A stretch of DNA of 36,111 nt from the IMG/VR virus record IMGVR_UViG_3300037882_000814, positions 1 to 36,111 of that record; one strand, written 5' to 3'. The notes beneath the pieces were generated by a model. It worked only from the letters and a program-made list of their open reading frames with translations, made no database searches and had not been told where the DNA came from. The position numbers were made by a program, and so were the translations under genes. The stretch is from a virus. This document shows, in pieces, positions 4,403 to 9,362 of the stretch. Numbering within the stretch: the first letter of the stretch is position 1; every line of letters begins with the position of its first letter.

Positions 4403-4806
4403 CCGCCCGTGCCGTTCCCGAATGGATTGGCAAGACGCCGGACACACGCCCGCCAACGCGCGTTAGAAGCCGCGTGTTTGATGCTCACGGCGGTGTTTGC
4501 CACATATCAAGGCGCAAGATTATGGCTGGCGAAGCGTGGGAATGTGACCATGTAATCGCACTAAAGAATGGCGGCGAAAACAGGGAAAGCAACTTAGCCC
4601 CTGCTTTGGTTGCGCCACACAAGAAAAAGACAAAAGCCGACGTGAAGGAAAAATCCATAATTGCCAGAGTTCGAGGCAAGCACATTGGAACAATAAAGCC
4701 GCAAGGCAAAATCAAATCAGCACCGTTTGCAAAGGCTTCACGGCCAATCAATGCGGGTAAACCAATGTTGCCCGCACGGCAACTGTATAGAGAGGCAAGG
4801 GAATGA
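4399..4806 (+). CDS. HNH endonuclease
   Basis: A 135-residue protein. GTG 4399 overlaps the upstream TGA (GTGA) and is preferred over GTG 4393. The middle holds an HNH core: FDAHGGVCHISRRKI, then WECDHVIALKNGGENRESNL, with the metal-binding DH pair and the Asn of HNH. The C-terminal part is basic (KKKTKADVKEKSIIARVRG) and probably contacts DNA. In phages such proteins act as nicking or packaging-associated nucleases. Here it sits in the early recombination operon, not beside terminase, so a recombination or host-DNA role is more likely. Confidence 0.82.
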   Translation: MTARAVPEWIGKTPDTRPPTRVRSRVFDAHGGVCHISRRKIMAGEAWECDHVIALKNGGENRESNLAPALVAPHKKKTKADVKEKSIIARVRGKHIGTIKPQGKIKSAPFAKASRPINAGKPMLPARQLYREARE

Positions 4807-5018
4807 GAGAAGAACACGCATATCCGGCTTATCCGCATTTGAAAAATTGGAATGGTGACGGCGCTATGCGTCCTGATTATCACGGAGGGTTAACTAAGCG
4901 CGAATGCTACGCAATGGCGGCTTTACCGCTTGCGCATGCCGACTACGATCTAACGGTTGGGCGGGGGCCAAAAAAGCGGTCTTATGTAGCAAACGCACCA
5001 AGGTGCGGACGTGAGTAA
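4803..5018 (+). CDS. Small protein, 3' end lies in the left inverted repeat
   Basis: A 71-residue protein, ATGA-coupled to the HNH gene and last in the plus-strand operon. The N-terminal part (GGLTKRECYAMAALPLAHAD) resembles small phage proteins with a GLTKREY motif. The C-terminal residues PKKRSYVANAPRCGRE are encoded inside the 35-bp inverted repeat at 4967-5001 and the bases beyond it. The natural 3' end was therefore probably replaced when the bracketed cassette arrived, leaving a truncated or fused protein. Confidence 0.55.
   Translation: MREEHAYPAYPHLKNWNGDGAMRPDYHGGLTKRECYAMAALPLAHADYDLTVGRGPKKRSYVANAPRCGRE
4967..5001 (+). repeat. Left copy of 35-bp inverted repeat
   Basis: The sequence begins GCCAAAAAAGCGGTCTTATG. 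Its reverse complement occurs at 8854-8888 with two mismatches (positions 7 and 9 of the repeat). The inner 26 bases (4976-5001) are identical. At 4994-5007 its inner end also forms a small palindrome (CGCACCAAGGTGCG) that the right copy lacks. Confidence 0.9.
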
Positions 5019-5070
5019 CCGGACTTTTGGCAAAGCCTGCAAAACGCACGTTTGTATTGGTGTGTGCGCC

Positions 5071-5988
5071 TTATTTTATTTCATTATTATAGAAGCAAGG
5101 GCTGAAAATCACTTCATCAGAAGCGCCGGAAAACCTGCGATAGCTGCACTGATAGGCGAATTTAGTGATGTGGTTTTTTCTAAAAATGTCTTTGTATTTA
5201 ATCAACCCCGTGACGACTACGTCAAACCCTTTCCCTTTAGCCGGTTCGAACTCTTCAACGCTGTTGGTGGAAAATTCTATGTCAAGCGAAGGGCCGATCA
5301 CAGTTCTTGGCGGATACTGGGGCGCTTCGGGGAAAACAGTATTTCTTCTTCGAATCGGGGATTCAAATATCTTAGCTTCTGCAAAAAAAGTGACATCGGT
5401 AGCAGGGCTTATGCCGCCATTGTGAATGGAAATGTTGACTTTTCTAGTTTTAAAATAGGCGGAACCTATTCCAATCTGCCTATCCTCTGCGCGCCAAACC
5501 CGCTTTACCGTCAGATAAGCGCGGGTTTGAGTTTCGCCAATTTGGCTTGTTACGGCACCAGCGCCACGAGACGTTATGTTGGCTTGGGCAGTCTGATACA
5601 GGCTTTCCCTAGTCAATCGAACGCTATGCAAAAGCAAAAGCAAACCTATTCCGCTTATAATAGTGCCGCCAAGTGTAAGCCAAAACAACCATTTAGCATA
5701 AAGCGCCATTTGCTCCTGAGCCAGCAAATCCCGTATTTCATTATCGTTTTGCTTATTAATTGCGGTTTGGCTTTGGGAATGTTCCGAGTTTCCAACTACA
5801 TTCTTAAGTGCAGTTTCATTTCGCAATGGAGCATCTGGAAAACTGGCTTGAACCTTACCATCGCGGTCGGCTTGAGTGTTGTTCTGATATTCACGCTCTT
5901 GTTGGTGACTGGTGGCCCGCTGGTCGATAGCATAAGCAGGGGCGGCTAATCCAAATGCAATGAAGATGAACCAATAGCGCTTGAACAT
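5071..5988 (-). CDS. Exported membrane protein of unknown function
   Basis: A 305-residue protein. Residues 1-20 are a signal peptide with an AYA cleavage site, followed by a polar Gln/Asn-rich stretch, one membrane helix at about 99-120 (WLFWLTLGGTIISGIGLLLL), a short coiled part and a soluble C-terminal domain of about 170 residues (QTRAYLTVKRVWRAEDRQIG). The RAYLTV pattern is common in small membrane proteins of phages and accessory islands. A longer-looking plus-strand frame (5011-5949) covers the same DNA but lacks coherent features. The start lies inside the DUF6471 gene (43-base overlap), so the two form one operon. A role in superinfection exclusion or host surface change is speculation. 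Confidence 0.72.
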   Translation of the reverse strand: MFKRYWFIFIAFGLAAPAYAIDQRATSHQQEREYQNNTQADRDGKVQASFPDAPLRNETALKNVVGNSEHSQSQTAINKQNDNEIRDLLAQEQMALYAKWLFWLTLGGTIISGIGLLLLLHSVRLTRESLYQTAQANITSRGAGAVTSQIGETQTRAYLTVKRVWRAEDRQIGIGSAYFKTRKVNISIHNGGISPATDVTFFAEAKIFESPIRRRNTVFPEAPQYPPRTVIGPSLDIEFSTNSVEEFEPAKGKGFDVVVTGLIKYKDIFRKNHITKFAYQCSYRRFSGASDEVIFSPCFYNNEIK

Positions 5989-6170
5989 TGTAATAAAAAC
6001 GCCGCCGTAAACTTGCCCCGTGCCAGCTTATTGCGCACGTTCACTTCCTTTTCGTCAACCCCAATTGCTGCCAGCCTTTCGACAAGCTGCGCATAGGTAA
6101 GCCCCTTGCGCTTAAGTTCTGCTTTCAAAAGGTTAGCAGCCTTCATTTCCCAGTCGGTTTTTTCTGCCAT
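5946..6170 (-). CDS. DUF6471 domain protein, candidate small regulator
   Basis: A 74-residue protein matching the DUF6471 pattern over nearly its full length: WEMKAANLLKAELKRKGLTY, then AQLVERLAAIGVDEKEVNVR, then NKLARGKFTAAFLLQC. The domain looks like a compact helix-turn-helix fold and is common in Proteobacteria. It is the first gene after a divergent promoter that carries four CGTTAC-type sites, which makes it a natural candidate for the protein binding those sites, but this is inference. The last residues (SSAIGSSSLHLD) differ from the usual ending, perhaps because the region also encodes the start of the next gene. Confidence 0.78.
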   Translation of the reverse strand: MAEKTDWEMKAANLLKAELKRKGLTYAQLVERLAAIGVDEKEVNVRNKLARGKFTAAFLLQCSSAIGSSSLHLD

Positions 6171-6258
6171 TGTAACGCTTTCACATATAAAAGTATCATA
6201 ATCGTTACATATGCCCTTGTCTTCGTTACGTCAATGCACTATATACGTTACATAAGTA
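6171..6258. promoter_or_regulatory. Divergent promoter region with four CGTTAC-type operator sites
   Basis: The 88 bases between the DUF6471 gene and the transposase hold CGTTAC at 6203-6208, 6224-6229 and 6246-6251 on the plus strand, and its reverse complement GTAACG at 6172-6177. Two of the sites extend to CGTTACATA. Centre spacings are about 31, 21 and 22 bases, close to whole turns of the helix, as expected for proteins bound on one face. The region is AT-rich and drives genes in both directions. Confidence 0.6.
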
Positions 6259-7236
6259 ATGGATATGATGACAATGGCCCAACACTTCCTCCTCTCAGCC
6301 GCCGCCCGCACACTTTCCCTGAAAGAAATCTTCAAGGCCGGTGAAGAAAAGGCTTATGAGACATTCAAAACAATCCGTTGGGCTTCAACCGAAGGCAATC
6401 CTGTTTGCCCTAAATGCGGTTGCTTAGATCACTATGCCATTACAACGCGCCGCAAATTCAAATGCGCAGCTTGTGGTTCGCAATATTCGGTTACGTCCGG
6501 CACGATTTTTGCCAGTCGTAAGTTGCCGTTCACTGATTTGCTTGGCGCAATCTCGATCTTTGTAAATGCCGTCAAAGGCTTGTCAGCTTTGCAGCTTAGC
6601 CGCGATCTGGACGTGCAATATAAGACCGCTTGGGTATTGGCACACAAGCTGCGTGAAGCCTTGTCATTGGAAGTTCAAGACAATACCGCAATGTCTGGCG
6701 ACGTTGAAGTTGATGGTGCATATTTTGGCGGTCACATTCGCCCGCACAACATCGCTGACAAGCGCGTTGACCGTCGCCGTGCAAAGCATCAAACAGGCTT
6801 GCGCCGCGTTGTGGTGGCCTTCCGTGAGCGTTTAGGCCGCACTCGTCCATTCGTTACCCTAGCCGAAGCCGAAGGCGTGGAATTGGCTAAGCGTCACGTT
6901 GACCGCATGGCAATCATGCATGCCGATGAAGCCACTCATTGGGATGCACTGCATGCTGGTTGGAATGTTGAGCGCGTCAACCACTCACAGACATATTCAG
7001 ACCACGGCAAGCACACCAATTGGGTTGAAAGCTATTTCAGCCGGTTGCGCCGCATGGTGACAGGCCAGCACCATTTCGTATCACCGCAGTATCTTTACCA
7101 GTATGCGAACCATGCCGCATGGCTTGAAGACAACCGTCGCAATGCAAACGGTGAAAACGCTGCCGAGATTATTGGTCTAGCAATGGCCTATCCGGTGTCG
7201 CGGGTTTGGAAGGGTTATTGGCAGCGGGCAAATTAA
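6259..7236 (+). CDS. IS1595-family (ISXO2-like) transposase
   Basis: A 325-residue protein. The N-terminal AQHFLLSAAARTLSL is typical of the family, so ATG 6274 is an alternative start. A zinc ribbon uses Cys50, Cys53, Cys69 and Cys72 (CPKCGC and CAACGSQYS). The ISXO2-like catalytic domain carries Asp152 (EVDGAYFGG), Asp223 (HADEATHWD) and the NWVESYFSRLRR motif at about 254-265. All key positions look intact, so it may be active. It is followed 32 bases later by the DUF3800 gene on the same strand. Transposases of this family move DNA by a cut- or copy-and-paste reaction with 8-bp target duplication. Confidence 0.92.
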   Translation: MDMMTMAQHFLLSAAARTLSLKEIFKAGEEKAYETFKTIRWASTEGNPVCPKCGCLDHYAITTRRKFKCAACGSQYSVTSGTIFASRKLPFTDLLGAISIFVNAVKGLSALQLSRDLDVQYKTAWVLAHKLREALSLEVQDNTAMSGDVEVDGAYFGGHIRPHNIADKRVDRRRAKHQTGLRRVVVAFRERLGRTRPFVTLAEAEGVELAKRHVDRMAIMHADEATHWDALHAGWNVERVNHSQTYSDHGKHTNWVESYFSRLRRMVTGQHHFVSPQYLYQYANHAAWLEDNRRNANGENAAEIIGLAMAYPVSRVWKGYWQRAN

Positions 7237-7268
7237 ATGCCAATGAAAGAAACTCAAAAGGCTTTCCA

Positions 7269-8084
7269 ATGCTCAGACCCTATACCTTTTACATGGACGA
7301 AACTGGAAGCCGTCACCCGGATAAGCAATCCGACAAGTCTAGACTTGGACGAGACTGGTTCGGCTTCGGCGGAGTTATGGTTAGAGGTGAAGATAATGAC
7401 GGCGTTCGTGATCGTGTAAGACATTTCTCAGATCGGTGGAAACTTAGTGGGCCCGCACACATTACAGACATGCGTTCTGAGAATAAGGCATTTTCATGGC
7501 TTGGCAAAATTGATCAAGTCACGCGCGAGCAATTTTGGTCAGATTGGCACCGCGTTCTTTGTGAATCTCCTGTCATAGGAATTGGGTGCGTAATAGACAG
7601 ACCCGGCTATCGAGCGCGGGGATATTTGGAAAAGCACCAATCGAAGTGGCTCCTTTGCAGGAGCGCGTTTGACATTACTATTGAGCGAGCTGTGAAAATT
7701 GCAATGATGGAAGGCCGAAAACTTCATGTTGTTTTTGAACAAGATGCAGGGATAAACAGCACTATTTCTGGGTATTTTCAAAATTTAAAAAACAACGGCT
7801 TGGAATTCGACAAAGAAAATAGCAAAAGGTATTCACCTTTAGCGTCATGTTGTTTTTCAACTACGCTTGGGCGCATCCAACACAAACCAAAATCACATGA
7901 ACTTTTGCAAGTTGCTGATAGTTATATTTATGCGCTGGCCCGGAAGGGTTATGACAGCAAATTCCCATTATACCGGCACTTGAGGGACGCAAAGCGCGTG
8001 GCGGAATTTTATCTGCCGCAAGAATGTTTGCCGCACATGAGTGTAAAATATTACTGCTTTGATAAAACGAAAAAACCGAGCTAA
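7269..8084 (+). CDS. DUF3800 protein, RNase H-fold, possible nuclease
   Basis: A 271-residue protein. The start at ATG 7269 is preferred because AAAAGG lies at proper distance; a longer frame from 7206 would overlap the transposase. DUF3800 features are visible: YTFYMDETG at the N-terminus, HVVFEQDAG in the middle and LLQVADSYIYALAR near the C-terminus. The acidic residues of these three motifs are the expected RNase H-like active site. DUF3800 proteins occur in prophages, mobile elements and defence-related islands, and their reaction is not well established. Here it is the last gene of the cassette and its stop codon lies in the loop of a terminator. Confidence 0.85.
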   Translation: MLRPYTFYMDETGSRHPDKQSDKSRLGRDWFGFGGVMVRGEDNDGVRDRVRHFSDRWKLSGPAHITDMRSENKAFSWLGKIDQVTREQFWSDWHRVLCESPVIGIGCVIDRPGYRARGYLEKHQSKWLLCRSAFDITIERAVKIAMMEGRKLHVVFEQDAGINSTISGYFQNLKNNGLEFDKENSKRYSPLASCCFSTTLGRIQHKPKSHELLQVADSYIYALARKGYDSKFPLYRHLRDAKRVAEFYLPQECLPHMSVKYYCFDKTKKPS

Positions 8085-8095
8085 GCTCGGTTTTT
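8071..8095. terminator. Strong intrinsic terminator at the end of the DUF3800 gene
   Basis: CCGAGC at 8076-8081 pairs with GCTCGG at 8085-8090 around a TAA loop, followed by TTTTT. A run of A lies on the other side, so it can work in both directions, which suits converging transcription. The loop TAA is the DUF3800 stop codon itself. The following 245 bases (8096-8340) are AT-rich, and I see no gene or clear signal in them. Confidence 0.88.
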
Positions 8096-8340
8096 CGCGG
8101 CTCCCATACGGTGAACCTAAAAGGCATTTCGGCCTCAATGCGGAAAATAGTATTTAGGATATTAAAGTCAAGTTAACTTATCGAAAGAATTTTCTTCCAT
8201 ATCCCGGCCATAATGAAATATAATTTTCTAAAGTCAGCAAATATGATGTCTGATCAGGGAAAGTCTTTCCGACGCCTCTATCGCTTTAGCCAAACCACAT
8301 TTCCATTGCCGTCTGCACCCTTGCGGCCGGAATTGTTTGC

Positions 8341-8811
8341 CTAGCCGGTTACCCGCCAAGTTTTGCACTGCCCGCTATAATCACACAACTCAACGCCGCC
8401 TTGCGCCTGCCAGCGGTTTAACACTTTGCGGATATAATTCCGCGTTGCATGGCCTTCGTGCTGGCATTCCTGATCAAGTGCAAATTTATCGATCAAATGA
8501 TGCACAATCTCAGTTGTGGTGCAGCCATTGGTTGCTTGGCTAACAAATGCCCAAATAGCCGCCCTGCGACTACGGGCCTCTATGCGCCCAATTTTGACTG
8601 GCTTTAAGCGGCGTATCGGGGTGAGTGCACCAAAGTCATTAAACCCAAACATTTGAAGCGCAGCGTCTAAGTGCTCAATCTGCATACCGATTTGATCTGA
8701 CTGCTTTAACAGATTCTCACGTTCACCAGCTAAATCACACCGCATGGTGATCAAGTCATTGACCGTGAATTGGTGATCTTTCGATCTTGATATGGGATAC
8801 TTGCGCGGCAT
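8341..8811 (-). CDS. Protein with coiled coil and winged-helix-like region
   Basis: A 156-residue protein, the last minus-strand gene inside the inverted repeats. The N-terminal 60 residues are mostly helical (NDLITMRCDLAGERENLL, then a likely coiled coil). After a basic linker (RRLKPVKIGRIEARSRRAA) comes a region that reads like a winged helix (TNGCTTTEIVHHLIDKFAL, then RNYIRKVLNRWQAQGGVEL). A DNA-binding regulator is plausible. It is not recognised as a named family. No strong ribosome binding site is seen before ATG 8811. Confidence 0.6.
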   Translation of the reverse strand: MPRKYPISRSKDHQFTVNDLITMRCDLAGERENLLKQSDQIGMQIEHLDAALQMFGFNDFGALTPIRRLKPVKIGRIEARSRRAAIWAFVSQATNGCTTTEIVHHLIDKFALDQECQHEGHATRNYIRKVLNRWQAQGGVELCDYSGQCKTWRVTG

Positions 8812-8911
8812 GCCGCAAACTAGTGAAATGCCGATAGATTTTCATGCAAATTGTTGGTGCGTTTGCTACATAAGACCGCCTATTTGGCTTTAGCGGCCCG
8901 GATAAACTCAT
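8756..8911 (-). CDS. Doubtful 51-residue frame across the right inverted repeat
   Basis: An ATG at 8911 opens a 51-codon frame whose residues PNRRSYVANAPT mirror PKKRSYVANAP at the end of the 4803-5018 gene, because both are encoded by the inverted repeat. It overlaps the start of the 8341-8811 gene by 56 bases in another frame. A weak GGA lies upstream. It is reported because the shared peptide could explain repeat conservation, but a non-coding repeat is more likely. Confidence 0.2.
   Translation of the reverse strand: MSLSGPLKPNRRSYVANAPTICMKIYRHFTSLRHAAQVSHIKIERSPIHGQ
8854..8888 (-). repeat. Right copy of 35-bp inverted repeat
   Basis: On the minus strand it reads GCCAAATAGGCGGTCTTATG and then the same bases as the left copy to CACCAA. 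It lies upstream of the 8341-8811 gene and 42 bases beyond the end of the secreted nuclease gene. Orientation is that of terminal inverted repeats, with outer ends at GCCAAA and inner ends at CACCAA. Confidence 0.9.
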
Positions 8912-8930
8912 GGATTTCCGGCGCGCATGT

Positions 8931-9362
8931 TCACTTGCACCAATCCGATTTGGTCAACGCGCCCGCTGTCAACCCATAGGGCCGTGACAATCCCGCTGCG
9001 ATCATTACCTTGGCAAAGTCGCGGCCATCGGGCAGCGTTACCGTGCCGACTATTCTGCAACTGTATTTATCCTTGGTGACATAAGTCACAATCACGCGGT
9101 CACCGCGCTTGATCAGGCCTTGTGCAAAGGCTTTGGCGGCTTTGCCCAACTTCACCTCAGCCTCGCATTTGGCGGGCGGCAGGCGGCTTTCGGGTGTGTC
9201 GATACCAAAAATGCGAACGCGGGTGTTGGCCGGGTTCCACAAATTGCACCGCTCTGCGATGATGATCGTGTCGCCATCGATTGCGCCATAGGTGATAAAT
9301 TCAGCAGCGCGGGCGGGCAAAGAGACCAGAATCGCGGCGAAGAAAAGCGCAAGTGTTTTCAT
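8931..9362 (-). CDS. Secreted thermonuclease (SNase-like)
   Basis: A 143-residue protein with a signal peptide (about residues 1-19, ending ARA) and one staphylococcal-nuclease fold. Visible active-site positions are IDGDT (Asp29, Asp31), Arg50 in RVRIFGIDTPE with Asp55 and Glu58, and Arg103 in KDKYSCRIVG. The family cuts DNA and RNA with calcium. AGGAAATT precedes the ATG. It is the last gene of the late operon, after the spanins, so it would be exported late. It might degrade released DNA or be a fitness gene unrelated to lysis; this is inference. Confidence 0.87.
   Translation of the reverse strand: MKTLALFFAAILVSLPARAAEFITYGAIDGDTIIIAERCNLWNPANTRVRIFGIDTPESRLPPAKCEAEVKLGKAAKAFAQGLIKRGDRVIVTYVTKDKYSCRIVGTVTLPDGRDFAKVMIAAGLSRPYGLTAGALTKSDWCK

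Follow-up and report, generated by a model that had tools for sequence, protein, structure and literature searches.

The 3,902 bp between positions 4977 and 8878 of the window (the whole 36,111-nucleotide virus record IMGVR_UViG_3300037882_000814 analyzed here) very probably form a complete, passenger-carrying unit transposon of the IS1595 family, with a gene core, two cargo slots, and flanks that we attribute to rearrangement. Elements of this kind are already known, and what is notable here is the conserved three-gene core, the cargo slots, and the location in a phage. A passenger-carrying IS1595 transposon was one of the two readings offered in the initial annotation, and it is upheld by dozens of relatives that share the terminal inverted repeats (TIRs), the core genes, and 8-bp target duplications while lying at different sites. 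We predict that the element is probably competent for transposition. The features of the element and of its immediate phage surroundings are collected in Table 1.

Table 1. Features of the IS1595-family element and its flanks (window coordinates; a dot marks features without strand).
Feature	Position	Strand	Remarks
Phage early ORF	4803..4976	+	reads into left TIR, fused ORF end 5018; weak phrog_2201 match
Left flanking 8-mer CAAAAAAG	4969..4976	+	scores in the top 2.5% of window 8-mers (target matrix built from the relatives); no copy on right
Left TIR CGGTCTTATGTAGCAAACGCACCAA	4977..5001	+	25/25 match to right end
Cargo slot 1, membrane protein, 305 aa	5071..5988	-	N-terminus resembling a signal peptide, hydrophobic segment further on; DLxAQxxMA and QxRAYL motifs conserved
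DUF6471 protein, core	5946..6170	-	PF20075 E 1.8e-29; overlaps start of membrane-protein gene
Shared divergent regulatory region	6171..6273	.	between DUF6471 and likely transposase start
Dyad CGTTACATAAGTAATG	6246-6261	.	just upstream of likely transposase start; sequence inspection
IS1595-family transposase, core, intact	6259..7236	+	zinc ribbon and DDE domain; likely start 6274
Cargo slot 2, DUF3800 protein, 271 aa	7269..8084	+	DUF3800 E 3.2e-7
Palindrome with A-run and T-run (AAAAACCGAGCTAAGCTCGGTTTTT), intrinsic-terminator-like	8071..8095	.	at DUF3800 end; sequence inspection
Coiled-coil and winged-helix protein, core	8341..8811	-	coiled coil aa 14-54, winged helix aa 76-154; adjoins right TIR
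Right TIR, CGGTCTTATGTAGCAAACGCACCAA on minus strand	8854..8878	-	25/25 match to left end
Right flanking 8-mer CCTATTTG	8879..8886	+	top 1.2% of window 8-mers on the target matrix; differs from left
Phage nuclease gene, SNase-like	8931..9362	-	PF00565 E 8.8e-10; terminal gene of opposing operon, 52 bp beyond right TIR

The longest inverted repeat of the window pairs positions 4967–5001 with 8854–8888 (35 nt, 33 identical, 94% complementary) and contains a perfect 26-nt core, for which a hand estimate gives an expectation of ~1e-7 per random 36-kb sequence. The repeat is not due to chance, because the same 26-mer, exact or a few bases off, lies beside IS1595 transposases in unrelated contigs. 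An exact search of IMG/VR found it in one further contig, beside a decayed IS1595 transposase, and near copies flank transposase relatives in three others. The 35-bp repeat with its 26 perfect bases was thus correctly described at the outset, but the TIR proper is only 25 bp long, because the target duplications of relatives start immediately outside the CGG at its end. The outer 9 nt of the repeat, considered as part of the TIR, were rejected: they are absent from relatives and are part of the phage flanks. Positions 4967–4976 and 8879–8888, which adjoin the TIRs on the outside, are partly inverted copies of each other (GCCAAA/TTTGGC), a likeness that is perhaps due only to palindrome-like target sites.

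Placement in the IS1595 family rests on the DDE_Tnp_IS1595 domain (PF12762, E 6.5e-35), the N-terminal IS1595 zinc ribbon (PF12760, E 1.6e-14), a match to NF033547 above its cut-off (E 1.7e-44), and matching TIRs at both ends. Translation of the transposase probably begins at ATG 6274 (MAQHFLLS). Scanning bacterial genomes with an alignment of the transposase returned at least 541 relatives. We kept 80 of these, picking loci by transposase alone, and nearly all belong to Alphaproteobacteria, the closest (84% identical) being from a Hoeflea MAG. Seventy-four relatives, 2.6 to 6.6 kb long, could be delimited by their TIRs, and with the element of the window added the comparison covers 75 elements. 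Members of the IS1595 family are usually flanked by an 8-bp target duplication (PMC8101967). This is also found for the present kind of element, which has the same ends: a perfect 8-bp duplication lies just outside the CGG in 67 of the 73 relatives in which both flanks are readable, 7/8 positions agree in one, and five relatives are mismatched, as is the copy in the window. The target sites of the relatives are AT-centered, roughly S-R-N-A-T-N-Y-S.

Three genes, unchanged in order and orientation, are common to all 75 elements: the transposase on the plus strand, a divergent DUF6471 gene on the minus strand, and a minus-strand gene for a winged-helix protein by the right TIR. This core was found by single-linkage clustering of open reading frames followed by profile searches of all frames. 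The transposase, DUF3800, DUF6471, membrane-protein, and winged-helix genes had all been recognized from the start, but DUF6471 and the winged-helix protein are part of this conserved core rather than passengers. The model of DUF6471 has a pLDDT of 91, and its residues 5–74 align best to C.Esp1396I (rmsd 1.3) with a Z of 9.9, the Cro/CI-type (XRE) fold extending over the whole chain. Foldseek E-values are weak, and Z values below ~13 can be common for helical bundles. We predict that DUF6471 is a Cro/CI (XRE)-type HTH regulator, and its gene and that of the membrane protein likely form one operon. For the right-end protein, AlphaFold2 gave a coiled coil and a winged helix (pLDDT 88), and Foldseek gave weak matches to Fur- and PadR-type winged helices. 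The other members of this family are only 12–25% identical to the protein of the window, which itself helped to seed the third profile and whose assignment leans on profile, position, and orientation together; used alone as a query, it had no match in IMG/VR. No meaningful match came from sequence searches of the PDB that used the winged-helix profile, DUF6471, or DUF3800, and no paper on the DUF6471 domain was found in the literature searched.

Judging from fold and position, DUF6471 and the winged-helix protein most likely regulate expression of the transposase or assembly of the transpososome. Among 298 genomes of one family, a related transposase is present in 28 and as a single copy in 27 of them, and 26 of 29 transposase copies have the winged-helix gene no more than 2 kb downstream, two of the three exceptions being less than 1 kb from a contig end. 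The combination of few copies and two core genes resembling regulators suggests that transposition is controlled. Both DUF6471, a domain of unknown function, and the winged-helix protein, which has no name as yet, are fixed partners of the transposase and can be tested as regulators of transposition. The stretch separating DUF6471 from the transposase contains a 6-4-6 dyad with a match of 5/6 or better in 57 of the 75 elements, compared with 26% in shuffled sequence, and the dyads have 26 different arms; the automatic scan stopped at 6258, so the dyad of the window (Table 1) was not scored by it. The TIR-core motif TACATAAG was considered as a common binding site in the transposase promoter and rejected, as it occurs there in only 13 of the 75 elements.

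Cargo varies in two slots, one to the left of DUF6471 and one, the more variable, between the transposase and the winged-helix gene. The family of the membrane protein occupies the left slot in 32 of the 75 elements, that of the window included (window E 1.9e-67), and other genes are found there in the rest, among them IrrE, a Clp-type protease, and an MmeI-like restriction gene. One 6.6-kb element (L067, 2569–9191) has as its cargo an MmeI/Eco57I-type restriction-modification gene of 1,063 codons. In the second slot we found SocA/Panacea (8 of the 106 proteins scanned), HicB, ParE, RelE, MqsA, IrrE, KilA-N, NYN, and two DUF3800 proteins, one of which is that of the window, where the gene probably starts at ATG 7269. 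DUF3800 has been predicted to be RNase H-like (PMC10910872). By these families, the cargo is often toxin-antitoxin or defense-like, and the matches of cargo in a defense library are candidates only.

Several relatives are inserted at recurrent sites. Nine elements, L067 among them, lie at one homologous site and four others at a second, and where checked these two sites are family-2 glycosyltransferase genes. Another four are inserted at two positions of a ComM/YifB-like gene (Mg-chelatase ChlI domain; Pfam-checked in two of the four), and comM is also the hotspot of AbaR islands in Acinetobacter. Five insertions fall in the same codons of an HNH-like gene (..LLHQI/CHNEIHA..), the fragments of which that were tried had no Pfam match, and three others share one site, which in one of them is the 3' end of a uracil phosphoribosyltransferase gene. 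In eleven elements (many Rhodobacterales copies), the insertion lies in a GC-rich stretch that is met repeatedly and continues with GATATTT or GTATTT; these stretches are possibly terminator-like intergenic repeats.

Genes for P22-like portal, terminase, head, endolysin, exonuclease, Erf, HNH, and RusA proteins are found in the window, which is a linear virus record. Its rightward gene block ends at ~5.0 kb and its leftward block spans from ~33.7 kb to 8.9 kb, with the element at the point where these operons converge. Insertion into a phage early gene had been proposed, and the left TIR does lie within an ORF (4803–5018) whose final 14 codons, stop counted, are transposon sequence, but cutting of a gene is not shown by this, since without a relative that has an empty site a truncated early gene is indistinguishable from a naturally short one. 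We searched IMG/VR using Erf, HNH, SNase, the major head protein, and a late protein of 390 aa, and GenBank phages using the portal and the fused early ORF; only distant phages that lack the junction were returned, and no empty site. At 8880–8933, the SNase frame continues open past its stop (TCAPEIHEFIRAAKAK) until it meets another stop immediately outside the right TIR, and a stop codon may have deprived the nuclease of its C-terminus. In tetranucleotide composition, the left and right phage parts are alike (distance 0.170, within the 0.117–0.194 spanned by blocks from the right part), and it is the element that stands apart (0.222). From this anatomy we infer that the element inserted into the phage, which probably acquired it from an alphaproteobacterial host.

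The copy in the window has no 8-bp target duplication, as had been observed at first: CAAAAAAG on the left and CCTATTTG on the right differ. We built a target matrix from the relatives and ranked all 8-mers of the window on it. Both flanking 8-mers rank high (Table 1), and both flanks score best at the exact offset of the TIR. That each fits the target preference, yet the two differ, indicates two separate target sites. The five mismatched relatives, which come from other assemblies, also have target-like 8-mers on both sides. Such flanks are expected from adjacent deletion or inversion by intramolecular transposition, or from recombination between copies, whereas point decay or random breakage would not produce them. 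Rearrangement of the locus during or after insertion is the most likely account, either through an adjacent deletion made by intramolecular transposition or through recombination of two copies. The same core occurs in a second phage-borne element (L004), which lies close to HNH and exonuclease genes of phage type. Its flanks are mismatched as well, so that both viral elements with both ends, but only 4 of 72 genomic ones, are mismatched (Fisher p 0.006, in a post hoc comparison on a tiny sample).

Could the unlike flanking 8-mers have arisen in another way? That the element is real and the contig mis-assembled, the transposon having joined two different sequences, seems to us improbable. The record is metagenomic and shows no duplication, and elements longer than reads can create false joins, but the phage parts on either side have the same composition, complementary gene content, and a convergent layout, and mismatched, target-like flanks recur in the five relatives from other assemblies. 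We give slightly less credit to the decay of a former target duplication by point mutation, with no rearrangement. The two 8-mers agree at 4/8 positions, as such decay might leave them, but four substitutions in 8 bp are unlikely against none in the 50 bp of the TIRs, and each 8-mer separately fits the target matrix. The other reading of the initial annotation, an invertible segment, would make the 35-bp repeat the boundary of a phase-variation cassette that is inverted site-specifically. This is hardly credible even though a few genes flanked by a long, nearly perfect inverted repeat and the missing duplication outside it would suit such a segment, because no site-specific recombinase domain is found inside the segment and the same repeat elsewhere is a transposon end, bounding elements at many unrelated sites with 8-bp duplications. 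A rare inversion by homologous recombination between the TIRs is possible.

For the IS1595-family transposon, we propose the following course. The transposase would act on the 25-bp TIRs and generate 8-bp target duplications at AT-centered sites, as seen in the relatives, while DUF6471 and the winged-helix protein may hold the element at about one copy per genome. Cargo is exchanged in the two slots, here filled by the membrane protein and DUF3800. The element probably entered the phage from an alphaproteobacterial host and now lies where operons converge, and the two different target-type flanks most likely arose, with or after the insertion, via adjacent deletion or recombination between two copies. 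On a broader and rather doubtful reading, the element would represent a widespread, self-regulated IS1595 class in which the pair of additional core proteins governs how many copies there are or which targets are chosen and toxin-antitoxin or defense cargo is exchangeable; it would ride phages, which would act as cargo carriers, and rearrange them by adjacent deletion so that the packaging limit is kept.

In phages, transposases are very rare: they make up <0.4% of the recombining phage genes examined in one study (PMC10879196). That a small podovirus-like genome contains a complete transposon with cargo suggests that such units can be acquired and handed on by phages. A phage-borne element is also a route by which viruses may carry passenger genes of toxin-antitoxin or defense type, and finding one in a virus genome is rare.

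Passenger-carrying IS1595 elements of the ISNha5 type were reportedly described by Siguier et al. in 2009 as 'transporter IS' (tIS). Elements of the ISNha5 group have CGG at their ends and are ~3.4–7.9 kb long, and the element of the window fits both. It also holds passenger genes besides the transposase between its TIRs, the mark of this subgroup. Transcription regulators are among the passengers known from tIS elements such as ISNha5 (PMC11891212, PMC8101967). Judged by description, the ISNha5 type and the present element share an IS1595-family transposase with a zinc ribbon, 8-bp target duplications, and passengers that include regulators, but no description of a fixed core of DUF6471 and winged-helix protein was found in the literature searched. 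The IS1595 family proper has the same transposase domains (PF12760, PF12762, and NF033547), but its members are single-gene elements of ~1 kb without regulators or cargo. Controller (C) proteins of restriction-modification systems, such as C.Esp1396I, resemble DUF6471 in predicted fold and in the dyad of an adjacent promoter, but C.Esp1396I has 15% sequence identity to DUF6471, which adjoins a transposase gene and whose binding to the dyad is putative. Tn3- and Tn7-like unit transposons differ in their unrelated transposase, 5-bp duplications, and resolvase or targeting proteins, which the element of the window does not have, and are like it in combining core genes with exchangeable cargo between TIRs.
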